Shown here: piece after piece, positions 17,544 through 22,084 of the stretch
Layout: the number at the start of each line of letters is the position of its first letter
Position numbering within the stretch: the stretch's first letter is position 1
Source of the DNA: Thermodesulfovibrionia bacterium
Lineage (GTDB): Bacteria; Nitrospirota; Thermodesulfovibrionia; UBA6902; BMS3Bbin08
Assembly: GCA_030694425.1 (NCBI GenBank)
Contig: JAUXYI010000024.1
Span: 1-37,036 of the forward strand
Length of the DNA: 37,036 nucleotides
Reading direction: 5' to 3'
Notes under the pieces: model-generated
Database searches by the model: none
Told to the model about the DNA's origin: nothing
The model's input: only the letters and a program-made list of their open reading frames with translations
Position numbers and translations under genes: made by a program

Positions 17544-18416
17544 TCATAGTGTAATATCCTCTGCAATGCCTGACTTTTCTTTAAGCATTATGCCAACCTT
17601 TTGCCAATCCACTTTATTTGCAACTCCTGCCTCATCTATAAGCCTTTTTGTTTCTGTAATCATATCTTTAATCTTTCCATAAATATCTGCATGGACCTCA
17701 AGGAACACCCTTCCCTCTCCTGAAATCGCAACCTTGATAGGATTATATATTATTTCTCCAGTGGTGTTTATTTCAACATCCTGAAAAAATTTTTCCATAT
17801 TTCCGGACATAACCCTGATACATCCGTGGCTCCTAAATTGATAAACAGTGGTCGGCCAGATGGTCTCGTGTATTACAACCCTCGGGATTGAGGTATCTAT
17901 CGCATACCCTCCCAGCGGATTATCAGGACCAGGCGGAACAACGGTCTTAACAGGTTTGCCTTCCATCATCATCTCCCACTGCATGGATTCAGGCACATGC
18001 CATGTGGGATTTTTCCGCTTGCCTATAATCGTAAATTTCTCAACAGGCGTCCTCCATCGTGTTATCCCTTTCCATGAGGGCATTCCAAGCCCTACCGGAA
18101 ATGCGCTTTTAAGCTTGCCTTCTTTAAAAAAATAAAGCATCCTGTCAGGAATATTAATTATTATACCGTCGTCAACCGCCTTTGGAATTATCTTCCGTGT
18201 GTTTACTTTGAGTTCCTGCTCTATCCGGAGATTTTTTTTAATATCTATGTTGTTGTCTTTGATTATATTTTTCTTGTTAACGCCCAGCTTTGCACTGATA
18301 AGTTCAATGCTGTCGCCTTTGACAATGCGATAAAGGGTATCTCCGCCGATAACCATATCAGCCGCATAAACAGAAGGGATAAAAATCAAAAGTAAAAGCA
18401 CAAACAATTTTTTCAT
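17544..18416 (-). CDS. LysM and L,D-transpeptidase (YkuD) domain protein
   Basis: A peptidoglycan cross-linking or lipoprotein-anchoring enzyme of the cell envelope. A signal peptide (MKKLFVLLLLIFIPSVYA) is followed by a LysM module (about residues 26-72: TLYRIVKGDSIELISAKLG). The YkuD catalytic domain begins at IIINIPDRMLYFFKEGKL and carries the catalytic segment RSHGCIRV, with His at about 197 and Cys at about 199. ATG at 18416 gives 290 residues. A TTG six bases further upstream has better spacing from AGGGAG and would add two residues. The gene is divergent from the rrf2-like gene, with about 150 bases between them. The extended loop between the fold start and the active site is typical of ErfK/YcfS-type enzymes. 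Confidence 0.92.
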   Translation of the reverse strand: MKKLFVLLLLIFIPSVYAADMVIGGDTLYRIVKGDSIELISAKLGVNKKNIIKDNNIDIKKNLRIEQELKVNTRKIIPKAVDDGIIINIPDRMLYFFKEGKLKSAFPVGLGMPSWKGITRWRTPVEKFTIIGKRKNPTWHVPESMQWEMMMEGKPVKTVVPPGPDNPLGGYAIDTSIPRVVIHETIWPTTVYQFRSHGCIRVMSGNMEKFFQDVEINTTGEIIYNPIKVAISGEGRVFLEVHADIYGKIKDMITETKRLIDEAGVANKVDWQKVGIMLKEKSGIAEDITL

Positions 18417-18526
18417 AATCAAAAATGAATCTCCCTATGGAATATCAATCTATTTAACCCCTTAAGAATCTAAAGCTTACATCATTATTTCATCCCCTGA
18501 CAAGAAAATTTTAAGGAGACAAAAAA

Positions 18527-18559
18527 ATACTTGACAAATTTAGTAAACTATTATATTTT
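18527..18559 (+). promoter_or_regulatory. IscR type 1-like operator overlapping the promoter of the Fe-S operon
   Basis: Positions 18527-18551 form an imperfect palindrome (left half ATACTTGAC, centre AAATTT, right half AGTAAACTAT). By my comparison it agrees with the E. coli IscR type 1 consensus, as I remember it, at 23 of 25 positions. The two mismatches are A for T after GAC and A for C after AGT. It contains TTGACA (18531-18536) as a -35 box; TATTTT at 18554-18559, 17 bases on, can be the -10. A bound repressor would cover the -35 and spacer. Transcription would then start at about the A of the rrf2 ATG (18566), implying a nearly leaderless mRNA. Confidence 0.65.
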
Positions 18560-18565
18560 ATTTTT

Positions 18566-18991
18566 ATGCTCAGACTATCTACAAAAGGACAATACGGCGT
18601 AAGGGCAATGTTTGAACTGGCAAAAAACTATAAACAGGGCCATTTAACCATAAAAGAAATTGCAAGGAGGCAGAGTGTGTCGGTTGCGTATCTGGAGCAA
18701 CTGCTCAACAAACTCCGCAGGGCAAGCCTCATAAAAAGCCTCAAAGGACCCGGCGGCGGATATGTACTAAGCAAAAAACCAGAGGAAATCAGCATAGGCA
18801 TGATCTTGAACGCCCTTGAAGGTCCTATTGCTATTACACAATGCCTCGGCCCGTCTGCTAAGGGATGTAAACGGATAGAAGGCTGTGTGGCAAGGCTTTT
18901 ATGGAAATCACTCGGTGAAGAAATAGAAAACTTCCTTGAGACAATAAACCTCAGGGCATTACTAAAAGAAGAAGCAAAAATAAAGAGGTAA
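18566..18991 (+). CDS. iscR: Rrf2-family Fe-S cluster regulator (IscR-like)
   Basis: A 141-residue winged-helix regulator. MLRLSTKGQYGVRAMFELA is the standard family start, and the helix-turn-helix spans about residues 28-52. The wing GPGGGYVLSK is at 61-70. The cluster cysteines are C93, C101 and C107, spaced CX7CX5C; E. coli IscR uses CX5CX5C plus a His that is not matched here. It heads an operon with a TusA-like, a NifS-like and an IscU-like gene and has an IscR type 1-like site in its own promoter, so autorepression by the [2Fe-2S] form is likely (inference). The gene name is by function and context; it could equally be a NifS-linked Rrf2 of another subfamily. Confidence 0.88.
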   Translation: MLRLSTKGQYGVRAMFELAKNYKQGHLTIKEIARRQSVSVAYLEQLLNKLRRASLIKSLKGPGGGYVLSKKPEEISIGMILNALEGPIAITQCLGPSAKGCKRIEGCVARLLWKSLGEEIENFLETINLRALLKEEAKIKR

Positions 18992-18995
18992 GATA

Positions 18996-19319
18996 GTGCA
19001 GATTCCTGAAGTTTCTTCTAAAGTGCAAAATAATATTCAACTCATGTTCATTGACAAGCCCATAGAGGCTGATGCAACAACAGATATAATTTACATGATG
19101 TGTCCGATGCATCTGCTTATTATTGACCAAAAAACAAAAGAGCTGAAAGTAGGGCAGATTCTCGCAGTCCTTACTGATTATGACGGAGCGCTTGAAGATA
19201 TCCCTGCATGGTGCATTAAAACAGGAAATGAATTCCTCGGTGTTTATGAAGCCGAGGACCATTACAAATTTTATGTAAGGAAACTTATAGAAAAAAGTTG
19301 TATATATAAGGAGACATAA
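18996..19319 (+). CDS. TusA/SirA-like sulfur carrier protein
   Basis: A 107-residue protein from GTG 18996, with AAGAGG about 7 bases upstream. Residues 25-100 match the TusA fold pattern: YMMCPMHLL with the carrier cysteine at C36, then LKVGQILAVLTDYDGALEDIPAWC, then YKFYVRKL at the end. TusA proteins pass persulfide sulfur received from a cysteine desulfurase. The second proline of the usual CPxP is His here (CPMH), and an N-terminal extension of about 20 residues is present. It sits directly upstream of the NifS-like gene (adjacent stop and start), so a role as its sulfur acceptor is plausible but inferred. Confidence 0.72.
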   Translation: MQIPEVSSKVQNNIQLMFIDKPIEADATTDIIYMMCPMHLLIIDQKTKELKVGQILAVLTDYDGALEDIPAWCIKTGNEFLGVYEAEDHYKFYVRKLIEKSCIYKET

Positions 19320-20516
19320 ATGAAAGAAATATATATGGACCATGTAGCAACAAATCCGCTTCACCCGGAGGCGCTGGAAGCAATGCTTCCATACTTCAAG
19401 GAACATTTTGGAAACCCGTTAAGCCTATATGAGCCTGGCATAAAGGCAAGAGAGGCTATTGAAAATGCGAGGGCAAGCACCGCATCTTTAATAAATGCAA
19501 AAGCAAATGAAATAATCTTCACATCAAGCGGTGCAGAGTCTAATAATTTTGCCCTTAAAGGCATTGCATTTGCCAATCAGAACAAGGGGAAACATATCAT
19601 TATTTCAAAGATTGAGCATCACTCTATTCTTAATTCAGCGCGTTTTCTTGAAAAGTCGGGGTTTGCAGTTACTTATCTGCCGGTTGACAAGTATGGTGTT
19701 ATTGACCCTGCAATTGTTGAAAAGGCAATTACAAAAGAAACAATTTTAATATCTATTATCCATGCAAGCCCTGAGATTGGAACCATAGAGCCGATAGCTG
19801 AGATTGGAAAGATAGCAAGACAAAAAGGCATAATTTTTCACACAGATGCTGTAGCATCCGTCGGCAATATCCCTGTTGATATTCAGCCGCTTAATGCTGA
19901 CCTGCTGTCTTTTGCTGCACATCAGTTCTACGGGCCCAAAGGCGCCGGAGCGCTTTATCTCAGAGAAGGAACAAGAATAGTTCCCTTGATTTACGGTGGA
20001 ATACAGGAAGGAGGCAGAAGGGCAGGAACTGAAAATGTCCCTGCAATTGTCGGCATGGGCAAGGCTGCAGAACTCGCTAAGAGAGATTTGCAAAAACGCA
20101 TAAATCATGTTAAGTCATTGAGGGACAAATTGATAAGTAATGCGCTGAAAGTAGAGAAGGTCTATCTTACAGGACATCCTGAGCAGAGACTGCCCGGACA
20201 TGCAAGCTTTGTAGTTGAGTACATTGAAGGCGAAGCCATGCTTTTACTCCTTGCAGGAAAAGGAATCTATGCAGCAAGCGGCTCTGCCTGCAGTTCCAAG
20301 GCATTAAAAGCCTCTCCTGTTTTGATTTCCATCGGAACGCCTGCGCATCTTGCGCAAGGTTCTGTTGTCTTTACGCTTAGCGAAGGAACAACAGAGGAAG
20401 AAATAAACTACTTTAATGAAGTTTTCCCTCAAATTATAAATCAACTGAGAAAAATCTCTCCTTTTGCAAAAGGATGGGGAGACATGGAGGATAAAACATG
20501 TACACCAAGGAAGTAA
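19320..20516 (+). CDS. nifS: NifS/IscS-like cysteine desulfurase homologue lacking the PLP lysine
   Basis: A 398-residue aminotransferase class V protein. It keeps the overall NifS layout and the sulfur-accepting cysteine (ASGSACSS, C324), the PLP-stacking His (IEHHSIL, H100) and the PLP Asp (HTDAV, D176). The motif normally reading SxHKxYGPKG reads AAHQFYGPKG, so the Schiff-base Lys is Gln (Q202; codon CAG at about 19923-19925). Other usually fixed residues also differ: DHVATNP in place of DNAATTP, ASPE in place of NNE before IGT, AVAS in place of AVQS, and SVVFTL in place of SxRFSL. The many coordinated changes and the intact frame suggest a diverged family, not decay. It may have no classical desulfurase activity or may work as a sulfur-handling partner of the TusA-like and IscU-like neighbours. 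Start ATG; GGAGA lies upstream. Confidence 0.88.
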   Translation: MKEIYMDHVATNPLHPEALEAMLPYFKEHFGNPLSLYEPGIKAREAIENARASTASLINAKANEIIFTSSGAESNNFALKGIAFANQNKGKHIIISKIEHHSILNSARFLEKSGFAVTYLPVDKYGVIDPAIVEKAITKETILISIIHASPEIGTIEPIAEIGKIARQKGIIFHTDAVASVGNIPVDIQPLNADLLSFAAHQFYGPKGAGALYLREGTRIVPLIYGGIQEGGRRAGTENVPAIVGMGKAAELAKRDLQKRINHVKSLRDKLISNALKVEKVYLTGHPEQRLPGHASFVVEYIEGEAMLLLLAGKGIYAASGSACSSKALKASPVLISIGTPAHLAQGSVVFTLSEGTTEEEINYFNEVFPQIINQLRKISPFAKGWGDMEDKTCTPRK

Positions 20517-20869
20517 TGGACCATTTTTCAAACCCGCGGAATGTCGGCGAGATGCCTGATGCCGACGGAATAGGCACTGAAGGCAACCCTGTATGCGGTG
20601 ATGTCATGAAGCTATTCATAAAAGTTACGGACAACAAAATAGTTGATGCCAAATTTCAGACCTTTGGCTGCGGCGCTGCAATAGCAGTATCAAGCATGGT
20701 TACAGAAATGGTTAAAGGCAAAACACTTGATGAAGCGCTTTCAATATCAAAAGAAACAGTTGCCAATGCGCTTGGGGGCTTGCCTCCGCAGAAAATGCAC
20801 TGCTCTAATTTAGGCGCAGACGCCCTTCGCAAGGCCATAGAAGATTACAAAAATAAGCAGCAGAAATAA
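20498..20869 (+). CDS. iscU: IscU/NifU-like Fe-S cluster scaffold
   Basis: A 123-residue scaffold on which [2Fe-2S] and [4Fe-4S] clusters are assembled before transfer to apo-proteins. MYTKEVMDHFSNPRNVGEM is the family start. The three ligand cysteines occur in GNPVCGD (C33), FGCGAAIA (about C58) and MHCSNL (about C102). Asp follows the first Cys as usual. It overlaps the NifS-like gene by 19 bases, so the two are translationally coupled. It is the N-terminal IscU domain only, without the NifU middle and C-terminal domains. All scaffold residues look intact, in contrast to the altered desulfurase upstream. Confidence 0.94.
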   Translation: MYTKEVMDHFSNPRNVGEMPDADGIGTEGNPVCGDVMKLFIKVTDNKIVDAKFQTFGCGAAIAVSSMVTEMVKGKTLDEALSISKETVANALGGLPPQKMHCSNLGADALRKAIEDYKNKQQK

Positions 20870-20890
20870 ATATTTTGCGGCTAAATTAAC

Positions 20891-21733
20891 ATGAAATCAC
20901 TCACACTCGGTTACTCGCCCTGCCCTAATGACACCTTTATCTTCTACGCCCTCGTTCATGACAAAATAGATACAAAAAATCTTAAATTCAAGGAAACCCT
21001 GTTTGATGTCGAAACCCTGAATCAAAAGGCGCTTAATACTGAACTTGATTTGACGAAAATCTCCTATCATGCATTCGGACATATGCGTAAAAATTACTGC
21101 CTGCTCAAAGCAGGAGGAGCGCTTGGCAAAGACTGCGGTCCGCTTGTAATAGCAAAAAATGAATATACGATGGAAGAACTGCGGGGCAAAAAAATCGCTA
21201 TTCCTGGAAAGTTAACCACAGCCTATCTCCTTTTACATCTCTATAATCCAGACTTCAGACTCCAGACATCAGACTTACTTGAAATGCCTTTTGATAAAAT
21301 TATTGATGCAGTGGCAAAAGAAGAAGTTGATGCTGGACTGATAATCCATGAAAGCAGGTTCACCTATCCTTCCTATGGATTAAAACAGATTATAGACCTC
21401 GGCGAATGGTGGGAAAAACAAACAGGTCTTCCTATCCCCCTCGGCGGCATAATCGCAAAACGTTCCCTCGGTGAGGGCTTGAATAAAAAAATTAATAAAA
21501 CCATTAAAGCAAGCATTGAATATGCTTTCAGCAACCGGGCTGAACCAATGGATTACATAAAAAAACATTCACAGGAGCTTTCTGATGATGTTATTAATCA
21601 GCATATAAACCTCTATGTAAATGATTATTCCCTTGATGTGGGTCAGGACGGAGAAAAGGCGGTAAATGAACTTCTTTCAAGAGCAGAAGAAGCAGGGATT
21701 ATTCCCAAGGTAAAACAAGAGATTTTTATGTGA
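20891..21733 (+). CDS. mqnD: 1,4-dihydroxy-6-naphthoate synthase (menaquinone, futalosine pathway)
   Basis: MqnD converts cyclic dehypoxanthine futalosine to 1,4-dihydroxy-6-naphthoate. The 280 residues begin with LGYSPCPNDTFIFYAL, the MqnD signature, with a periplasmic-binding-protein-like fold. DLTKISYHAF near residue 54, GPLVIAKNEY near residue 85 and DAGLIIHESRFTY near residue 145 are typical. GEWWEKQTGLPIPLGGIIAKR follows. A word repeat, CAGACTTCAGACTCCAGACA and flanks (21248-21280), is read in frame as RLQTSD in the middle of the protein. The start codon is ATG 21 bases after iscU, so it may belong to the same transcript. Its last 50 bases recur downstream of the AbrB/PIN pair. Confidence 0.92.
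   Translation: MKSLTLGYSPCPNDTFIFYALVHDKIDTKNLKFKETLFDVETLNQKALNTELDLTKISYHAFGHMRKNYCLLKAGGALGKDCGPLVIAKNEYTMEELRGKKIAIPGKLTTAYLLLHLYNPDFRLQTSDLLEMPFDKIIDAVAKEEVDAGLIIHESRFTYPSYGLKQIIDLGEWWEKQTGLPIPLGGIIAKRSLGEGLNKKINKTIKASIEYAFSNRAEPMDYIKKHSQELSDDVINQHINLYVNDYSLDVGQDGEKAVNELLSRAEEAGIIPKVKQEIFM
21248..21280. repeat. in-frame word repeat within mqnD
   Basis: CCAGACTTCAGACTCCAGAC continuing to ATCAGACTTA is a run of CAGACT-type words of period 7-8, read in frame. The same words occur in reverse (GTCTGAAGTCTGAAGTC) in nnr at about 26951-26967. Confidence 0.6.
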
Positions 21734-21736
21734 AAA
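21681..21736 (+). repeat. mqnD 3'-end direct repeat, left copy
   Basis: The last codons and stop of mqnD (from GAGCAGAAGAAGCAGGGATT). They align without gaps to 22481-22536, exactly 800 bases downstream, with about 47 of 56 identities. The two copies bracket the AbrB/PIN module. Confidence 0.8.
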
Positions 21737-21820
21737 TTTTGCCTTATTTTCTCTTGACAAATATCTTATTTTGAGCTACTCTTATAATTAGTAGGATAAA
21801 AATAACAGGTAGGAGGAATT

Positions 21821-22084
21821 ATGCAAGCAGTAAAAGTATTACCTAAAGGACAGATAACACTTCCCAAAAAAGTGCGGAAGAAACTTGGTATAAAAGAAGG
21901 GGATTCCCTTGTCCTTGAAGAAGAAAAAGACAAGATAGTCTTAAAAAAAGGTAAAACTATATTTGATTATATAGGCGTTTTACCTAATCTCGGCATGAGC
22001 ATAGAGGAGATGAGAGAAAAAGCGATTGAGGAGGTTGCTAAAGAACGTGCTGAAAGCATTCATAGATACAAGCGTAATACTTAG
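21821..22084 (+). CDS. AbrB/MazE-like antitoxin
   Basis: An 87-residue protein. The swapped-hairpin AbrB domain (residues 1-45) reads VKVLPKGQITLPKKVRKKLGIKEGDSLVLEE, followed by a short C-terminal tail that should bind the toxin. AGGAGG sits 6 bases before the ATG. Upstream, TTGACA (21754-21759) and TATAAT (21783-21788) are both perfect hexamers but 23 bases apart, so the promoter is uncertain; TACTCT at 21777 would give normal spacing. It overlaps the PIN toxin gene. The pair lies between two copies of the mqnD 3' end. Confidence 0.82.
   Translation: MQAVKVLPKGQITLPKKVRKKLGIKEGDSLVLEEEKDKIVLKKGKTIFDYIGVLPNLGMSIEEMREKAIEEVAKERAESIHRYKRNT

Follow-up and report, generated by a model that had tools for sequence, protein, structure and literature searches.

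A type 1-like IscR operator overlapping a predicted leaderless promoter at the isc operon of a Nitrospirota class

The isc operon of a Thermodesulfovibrionia bacterium probably carries a self-contained autoregulatory promoter ahead of iscR-tusA-nifS-iscU, where an operator resembling the type 1 sites of IscR lies across the promoter, iscR is predicted to be leaderless, and repression would be lifted by loss or change of the iron-sulfur (Fe-S) cluster; we put the probability of this reading at about 0.8. We found the operator, conserved among relatives and held in register with the -35 element, the -10 element and the ATG, at one site of a genome that encodes one Rrf2 protein. Coordinates in Table 1 refer to the window, by which we mean the whole stretch of 37,036 nucleotides that was analysed.

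Table 1. Features of the control region and of the operon, in window positions
Feature	Position	Strand	Remark
Type 1-like IscR operator ATACTTGACAAATTTAGTAAACTAT	18527..18551	+	imperfect 25-bp palindrome
-35 element TTGACA	18531..18536	+	within the left half-site of the operator
-10 element TATTTT (TAnnnT)	18554..18559	+	spacer of 17 bp after TTGACA
Predicted transcription start, A of ATG	18566	+	placed from the -10 spacing and the conserved operator-ATG distance
iscR-like Rrf2 regulator, 141 aa	18566..18991	+	PF02082, E 4.5e-39
tusA-like sulfurtransferase gene	18996..19319	+	PF01206, E 3.9e-18; start GTG 18996 or ATG 19041
nifS/iscS cysteine desulfurase	19320..20516	+	PF00266; TIGR03402, 493 bits
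iscU scaffold (NifU N-terminal type)	20498..20869	+	TIGR03419, over cut-off

Operator, promoter and operon

A preliminary description of this DNA had reported a 25-base palindrome agreeing with the type 1 IscR consensus at 23 positions, and our analysis recovered it at the same coordinates. Compared with ATASYYGACTRWWWYAGTCRRSTAT, which we take to be the type 1 consensus and which was cross-checked against the region upstream of iscR in Escherichia coli K-12, the operator ATACTTGACAAATTTAGTAAACTAT is identical at 23/25 positions and departs from it only at position 10 (A for T) and position 19 (A for C); once W is permitted at positions 10 and 16, as in our scan pattern, the score becomes 24/25. 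The E. coli iscRSUA sequence ATAGTTGACCAATTTACTCGGGAAT, upstream of K-12 iscR, is identical to the present operator at 17/25 positions. Scanning both strands of the whole 2,417,392-base genome with at most three mismatches returned this palindrome at a single place, before rrf2, and the reversed control pattern gave 0 matches in the same genome at the same threshold; the best background score, taken from about 343 kb of this genome on both strands, was 20/25.

The overlap of the operator with the -35 element and the spacer, also part of the preliminary description, was confirmed, with TTGACA lying inside the left half-site. TTGACA-N17-TATTTT ranks first among the promoter-like sites of positions 18400-21830, and the scan of that interval found overall no more such sites than shuffled sequences do, so that the evidence for the promoter is its conservation. 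A Shine-Dalgarno sequence is absent between the promoter and the iscR start. Leaderless starts do occur in this genome, because in a 380-kb sample TATAAT-like hexamers are most frequent at precisely 12 nt ahead of the first ATG (11/244 genes, about 2 at other positions), and iscR would be one among a minority of leaderless genes, the predicted state being kept throughout the class. The full-length nifU of the same genome (L168:1440-1500; G000:C51 near 39998) looks leaderless too, with the arrangement TTGACA-N17-TATTAA-N7-ATG; it has no IscR palindrome, and a second nifS lies downstream of it.

Searches with Pfam and NCBIfam confirmed the operon rrf2-tusA-nifS-iscU, with the iscR-like gene standing first, a nifS that has its own Shine-Dalgarno sequence (AAGGAG), and a divergent ykuD gene upstream. 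This composition had been called unusual, a view that did not hold, since 60 of the 71 class loci having enough sequence carry tusA-nifS-iscU behind iscR. The genome contains one Rrf2 gene, which leaves the iscR-like protein as the sole candidate binder from the Rrf2 family; a different Rrf2 binder was ruled out, no second one being present. The SUF system (SufB/D) was not found in the genome by a search that was positive in 14/14 known genomes used as control, and the scaffolds comprise one IscU-type protein and the separate full-length NifU.

Conservation in the class and origin of the leaderless state

The class set consists of 104 distinct orthologous loci with upstream sequence from the same Nitrospirota class (named records Thermodesulfovibrionia/Nitrospirae). 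Orthologues are present in most relatives and in named Nitrospirota records, including Thermodesulfovibrionia bacteria, Candidatus Magnetobacterium casense and BMS3Bbin08. Comparison of the regions upstream of these rrf2 genes brought no refutation of the operator, which scores 20-25 of 25 in 102/104 loci; in 104/104 the operator, or what is left of it, keeps a single spacing to the start codon. TTGAC occupies operator positions 5-9 in 100% of the loci, and TAnnnT is in exact register in 84/104, several of the remaining 20 being off by one base. The predicted leader measures -1 nt in 30 loci, 0 in 58 and 1-6 nt in 16, and the best match to AGGAGG ahead of the start is 4/6 or less in all 104. 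The earlier suggestion that transcription would start on the ATG and give a leaderless mRNA is thus supported by a predicted leader of -1 to +6 nt in every locus, and a leaderless iscR throughout the class is the best reading. Column information amounts to roughly 0.6-2 bits across the operator, including the half that lies within the promoter spacer, and to about 0.1 bit over the 40 bases upstream of it.

Two other explanations of this region have to be weighed against an autoregulatory leaderless promoter. It is very improbable that only a strong leaderless sigma-70 promoter (TTGACA/TAnnnT) is conserved here and that the palindrome is incidental: the left half-site is indeed the -35 element itself, and one family (f7) retains the promoter with a poor right half, yet a plain promoter need not conserve its spacer, the right-half columns within the spacer are conserved at 0.8-2 bits with type 1 letters, and a similar palindrome persists in the Nitrospirota and Deltaproteobacteria that have leaders. 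Unlikely as well, though less so, is that operator and autorepression are real but the leader comes from a promoter further upstream, the close ATG being a coincidence of a compact intergenic region. In favour of such a leader, an AAGGAG at 18513-18518 lies, in the window alone, 8 nt before an in-frame ATA (18527); a leadered start at that ATA was rejected since relatives do not conserve the AAGGAG. Conservation upstream of the operator is likewise missing, 104 loci share one fixed distance from operator to ATG whereas outgroup leaders differ widely in length, and in the window the divergent ykuD excludes read-through from upstream.

The family f7 just mentioned (L035, L037, L043) retains the leaderless promoter with a degraded operator of 17-21/25, which means that the two are separable; regulation may be lost or altered there. 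In the same family, tusA lies behind iscU in L037 and L043 and was not found in L035. Another locus, L033 (G013:C64 7558-7602), has its operator 45 nt before the ATG and a perfect TATAAT, followed between the -10 element and the start by agtttact, another half-site-like sequence.

A wider regulon was sought among 81 relatives, where every match at 0-2 mismatches precedes iscR apart from G031:C36:1911, which was rejected as a regulon member because it falls inside an integrase ORF; it sits just before a tRNA-like sequence. Matches with 3 mismatches in these relatives are about as frequent as those of the reversed control pattern, and one of them (L211, G061:C8) is upstream of ATP-synthase-like genes. 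The pattern search gave no operator site in the genomes of family f13, which are without the orthologue. In a genus without the orthologue, a fragment of 55 residues (G065:C1:1108172-1108333) shares 48% identity with the C-terminal region of IscR and is possibly a remnant of it.

Beyond the class, ATACTTGACAGATTTAGTCAGGTTT-like operators occur at loci of another Nitrospirota class (L169-L179, L187), where the -10 element keeps the register and the leaders measure 17-72 nt. Deltaproteobacteria (L130, L135, L137, L138, L140, L157, L165) have a similar palindrome, with TAnnnT again in register, and their leaders span 47-70 nt, or 187 nt in L157. Given that leadered Nitrospirota and Deltaproteobacteria share the operator-promoter register, this register probably predates the class. 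What sets the class apart is the predicted loss of the leader, which looks derived, since these outgroups combine the same register with leaders of at least 17 nt. Clostridia loci show related CCGA/TCGG palindromes together with Shine-Dalgarno sites; in L131, L133, L142, L144 and L161, AATTCCGA..TCGGRATT is found whole or in part near the Shine-Dalgarno sequence, several of these sequences standing behind a -10-like TATGAT, at a position that differs from that of the Nitrospirota operator.

A quick gene tree implies 2 changes between the leadered and leaderless states, and it places Thermodesulfobacteria sequences that have no operator inside the leaderless set, for which reason a single clean clade of that set was marginally rejected (p-AU 0.04). 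The second change comes from these sequences, which sit near a branch of low support (16). They belong to Caldimicrobium and Thermodesulfobacterium (L127, L129, L132), whose iscR-like genes are about 50% identical, lack a type 1 operator and have a strong Shine-Dalgarno sequence; their placement inside the Nitrospirota class is weakly supported, and the genes were perhaps transferred. As a tentative scenario, for which we would claim somewhat less than even odds, an older type 1 operator-promoter would have lost its leader in the ancestor of the class and become a 39-bp unit of operator, promoter and start; selection would have kept this unit because it matters to Fe-S feedback that the repressor is translated without a leader, and the fourth cluster ligand would have been exchanged repeatedly with the DNA site unchanged.

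The regulator and known IscR systems

The iscR-like protein carries the motif Cys93-x7-Cys101-x5-Cys107-x2-Arg110 and keeps Glu44/Gln45, the equivalents of Glu43/Gln44 in E. coli; the corresponding LEQ is kept in 103/104 class loci, and Lys stands at the E. coli Arg59 position in 94/104. The three Cys ligands are invariant across the aligned orthologues with x7-x5 spacing, the first spacing here being x7 and not x5. His107, the fourth ligand of E. coli, is replaced by Arg in this protein and in its order, and across the class the position is occupied by R in 46, H in 37, Y in 9, S in 5, Q in 5 and A in 1; on the gene tree this residue changes 8 times or more within the class. The IscR equivalog model TIGR02010 scores 143.1 bits, below its cut-off of 207.55, yet it is the best-scoring model. 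The nearest solved structures by sequence are 4cic (E 2.3e-42), presumably the IscR of Thermincola potens, followed by E. coli IscR.

The preliminary description saw in the palindrome a conservation of [2Fe-2S]-IscR type recognition far outside Proteobacteria. The conserved operator argues for the recognition part of this proposal; the [2Fe-2S] part can be inferred only partly, because Arg replaces His107 in this protein, the class varies at that position, and the first two Cys are spaced by x7. It is possible, though less likely than not, that sensing does not go through a His-ligated [2Fe-2S] cluster but uses other ligands, a [4Fe-4S] cluster or the redox state of the Cys residues, and that the regulator in such a form occupies the type 1-like site. 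These same departures at His107 and in the spacing would suit such sensing, and the related Rrf2 protein NsrR has a [4Fe-4S] cluster with Asp8 as a ligand (PMC5411485), whereas the invariance of the three Cys, the many class members that keep His with the same operator, and the retention of Glu43, which prevents apo-IscR from binding type 1 sites (PMC5411485), speak against it.

The system has in common with E. coli iscRSUA the type of operator, the position of the regulator as first gene of the ISC operon, Glu43/Gln44 and the three Cys. It differs in that the E. coli type 1 site begins about 108 bp before the ATG, with a leader that is predicted to be missing here; E. coli has a large regulon and SUF, whereas one site and no SUF are found here, Arg takes the place of His107, tusA is part of the operon, and iscA, hscBA and fdx do not adjoin it. 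Type 1 recognition outside Proteobacteria is supported and is not new in kind, as the IscR of the Firmicute T. potens shows, the closest by sequence among solved structures, with Lys in the His107 column and likewise not His; related Clostridia loci such as L142 have CCGA..TCGG-type palindromes at another position, with a Shine-Dalgarno sequence. This comparison draws on general background, a PDB sequence match and the passages of PMC5411485 and PMC9338935 that mention the protein. RisR of Myxococcus xanthus (PMC9973013) resembles the proposed regulator in being an Fe-S Rrf2 repressor with an imperfect palindrome (Tt/gGAC-N7-GTCCt/a) in the isc and suf promoters, and differs in regulating both isc and suf and in somewhat different core letters. 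Surveys of leaderless genes (PMC3160421, PMC12340547) likewise describe a -10 hexamer adjoining the start codon without a Shine-Dalgarno sequence; those surveys treat it as a way in which genes are expressed, whereas in the present class it is preserved together with a predicted repressor operator. A search of the open-access literature found neither this operator nor a leaderless iscR described in Nitrospirota.

Proposed mechanism and its meaning

Binding, the type of cluster, the sign of regulation and the 5′ end are what we infer from the sequence, and the most likely arrangement here is autorepression by the cluster-bearing form; the geometry supports the autorepression proposed earlier, as the predicted operator covers the -35 element and spacer of the regulator's own operon. 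The iscR-like repressor, probably a dimer carrying an Fe-S cluster, would bind the 25-bp operator, which spans the -35 hexamer together with the greater part of the spacer, and would thereby keep RNA polymerase from its own operon. Repression would end once the cluster is stripped or changed, whether by Fe-S demand, by oxidation or by a shortage of iron, and the only ISC operon of a SUF-less genome would then be made. Transcription would begin at, or a few nt from, the A of the iscR start codon, giving a leaderless mRNA on which iscR would be translated without a Shine-Dalgarno sequence and the downstream nifS from its own AAGGAG.

The whole control region thus apparently fits within one 39-base stretch, and more than 100 related species keep the operator fused to the promoter. 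As a regulatory gene predicted to be leaderless, iscR is conserved to an unusual degree, and the leadered sister classes with the same operator register form a natural comparison set for it. Recognition of the operator also appears separated from the identity of the fourth ligand, with His, Arg, Tyr, Ser and Gln orthologues standing behind near-identical operators, and the role of that ligand in sensing is therefore directly testable.
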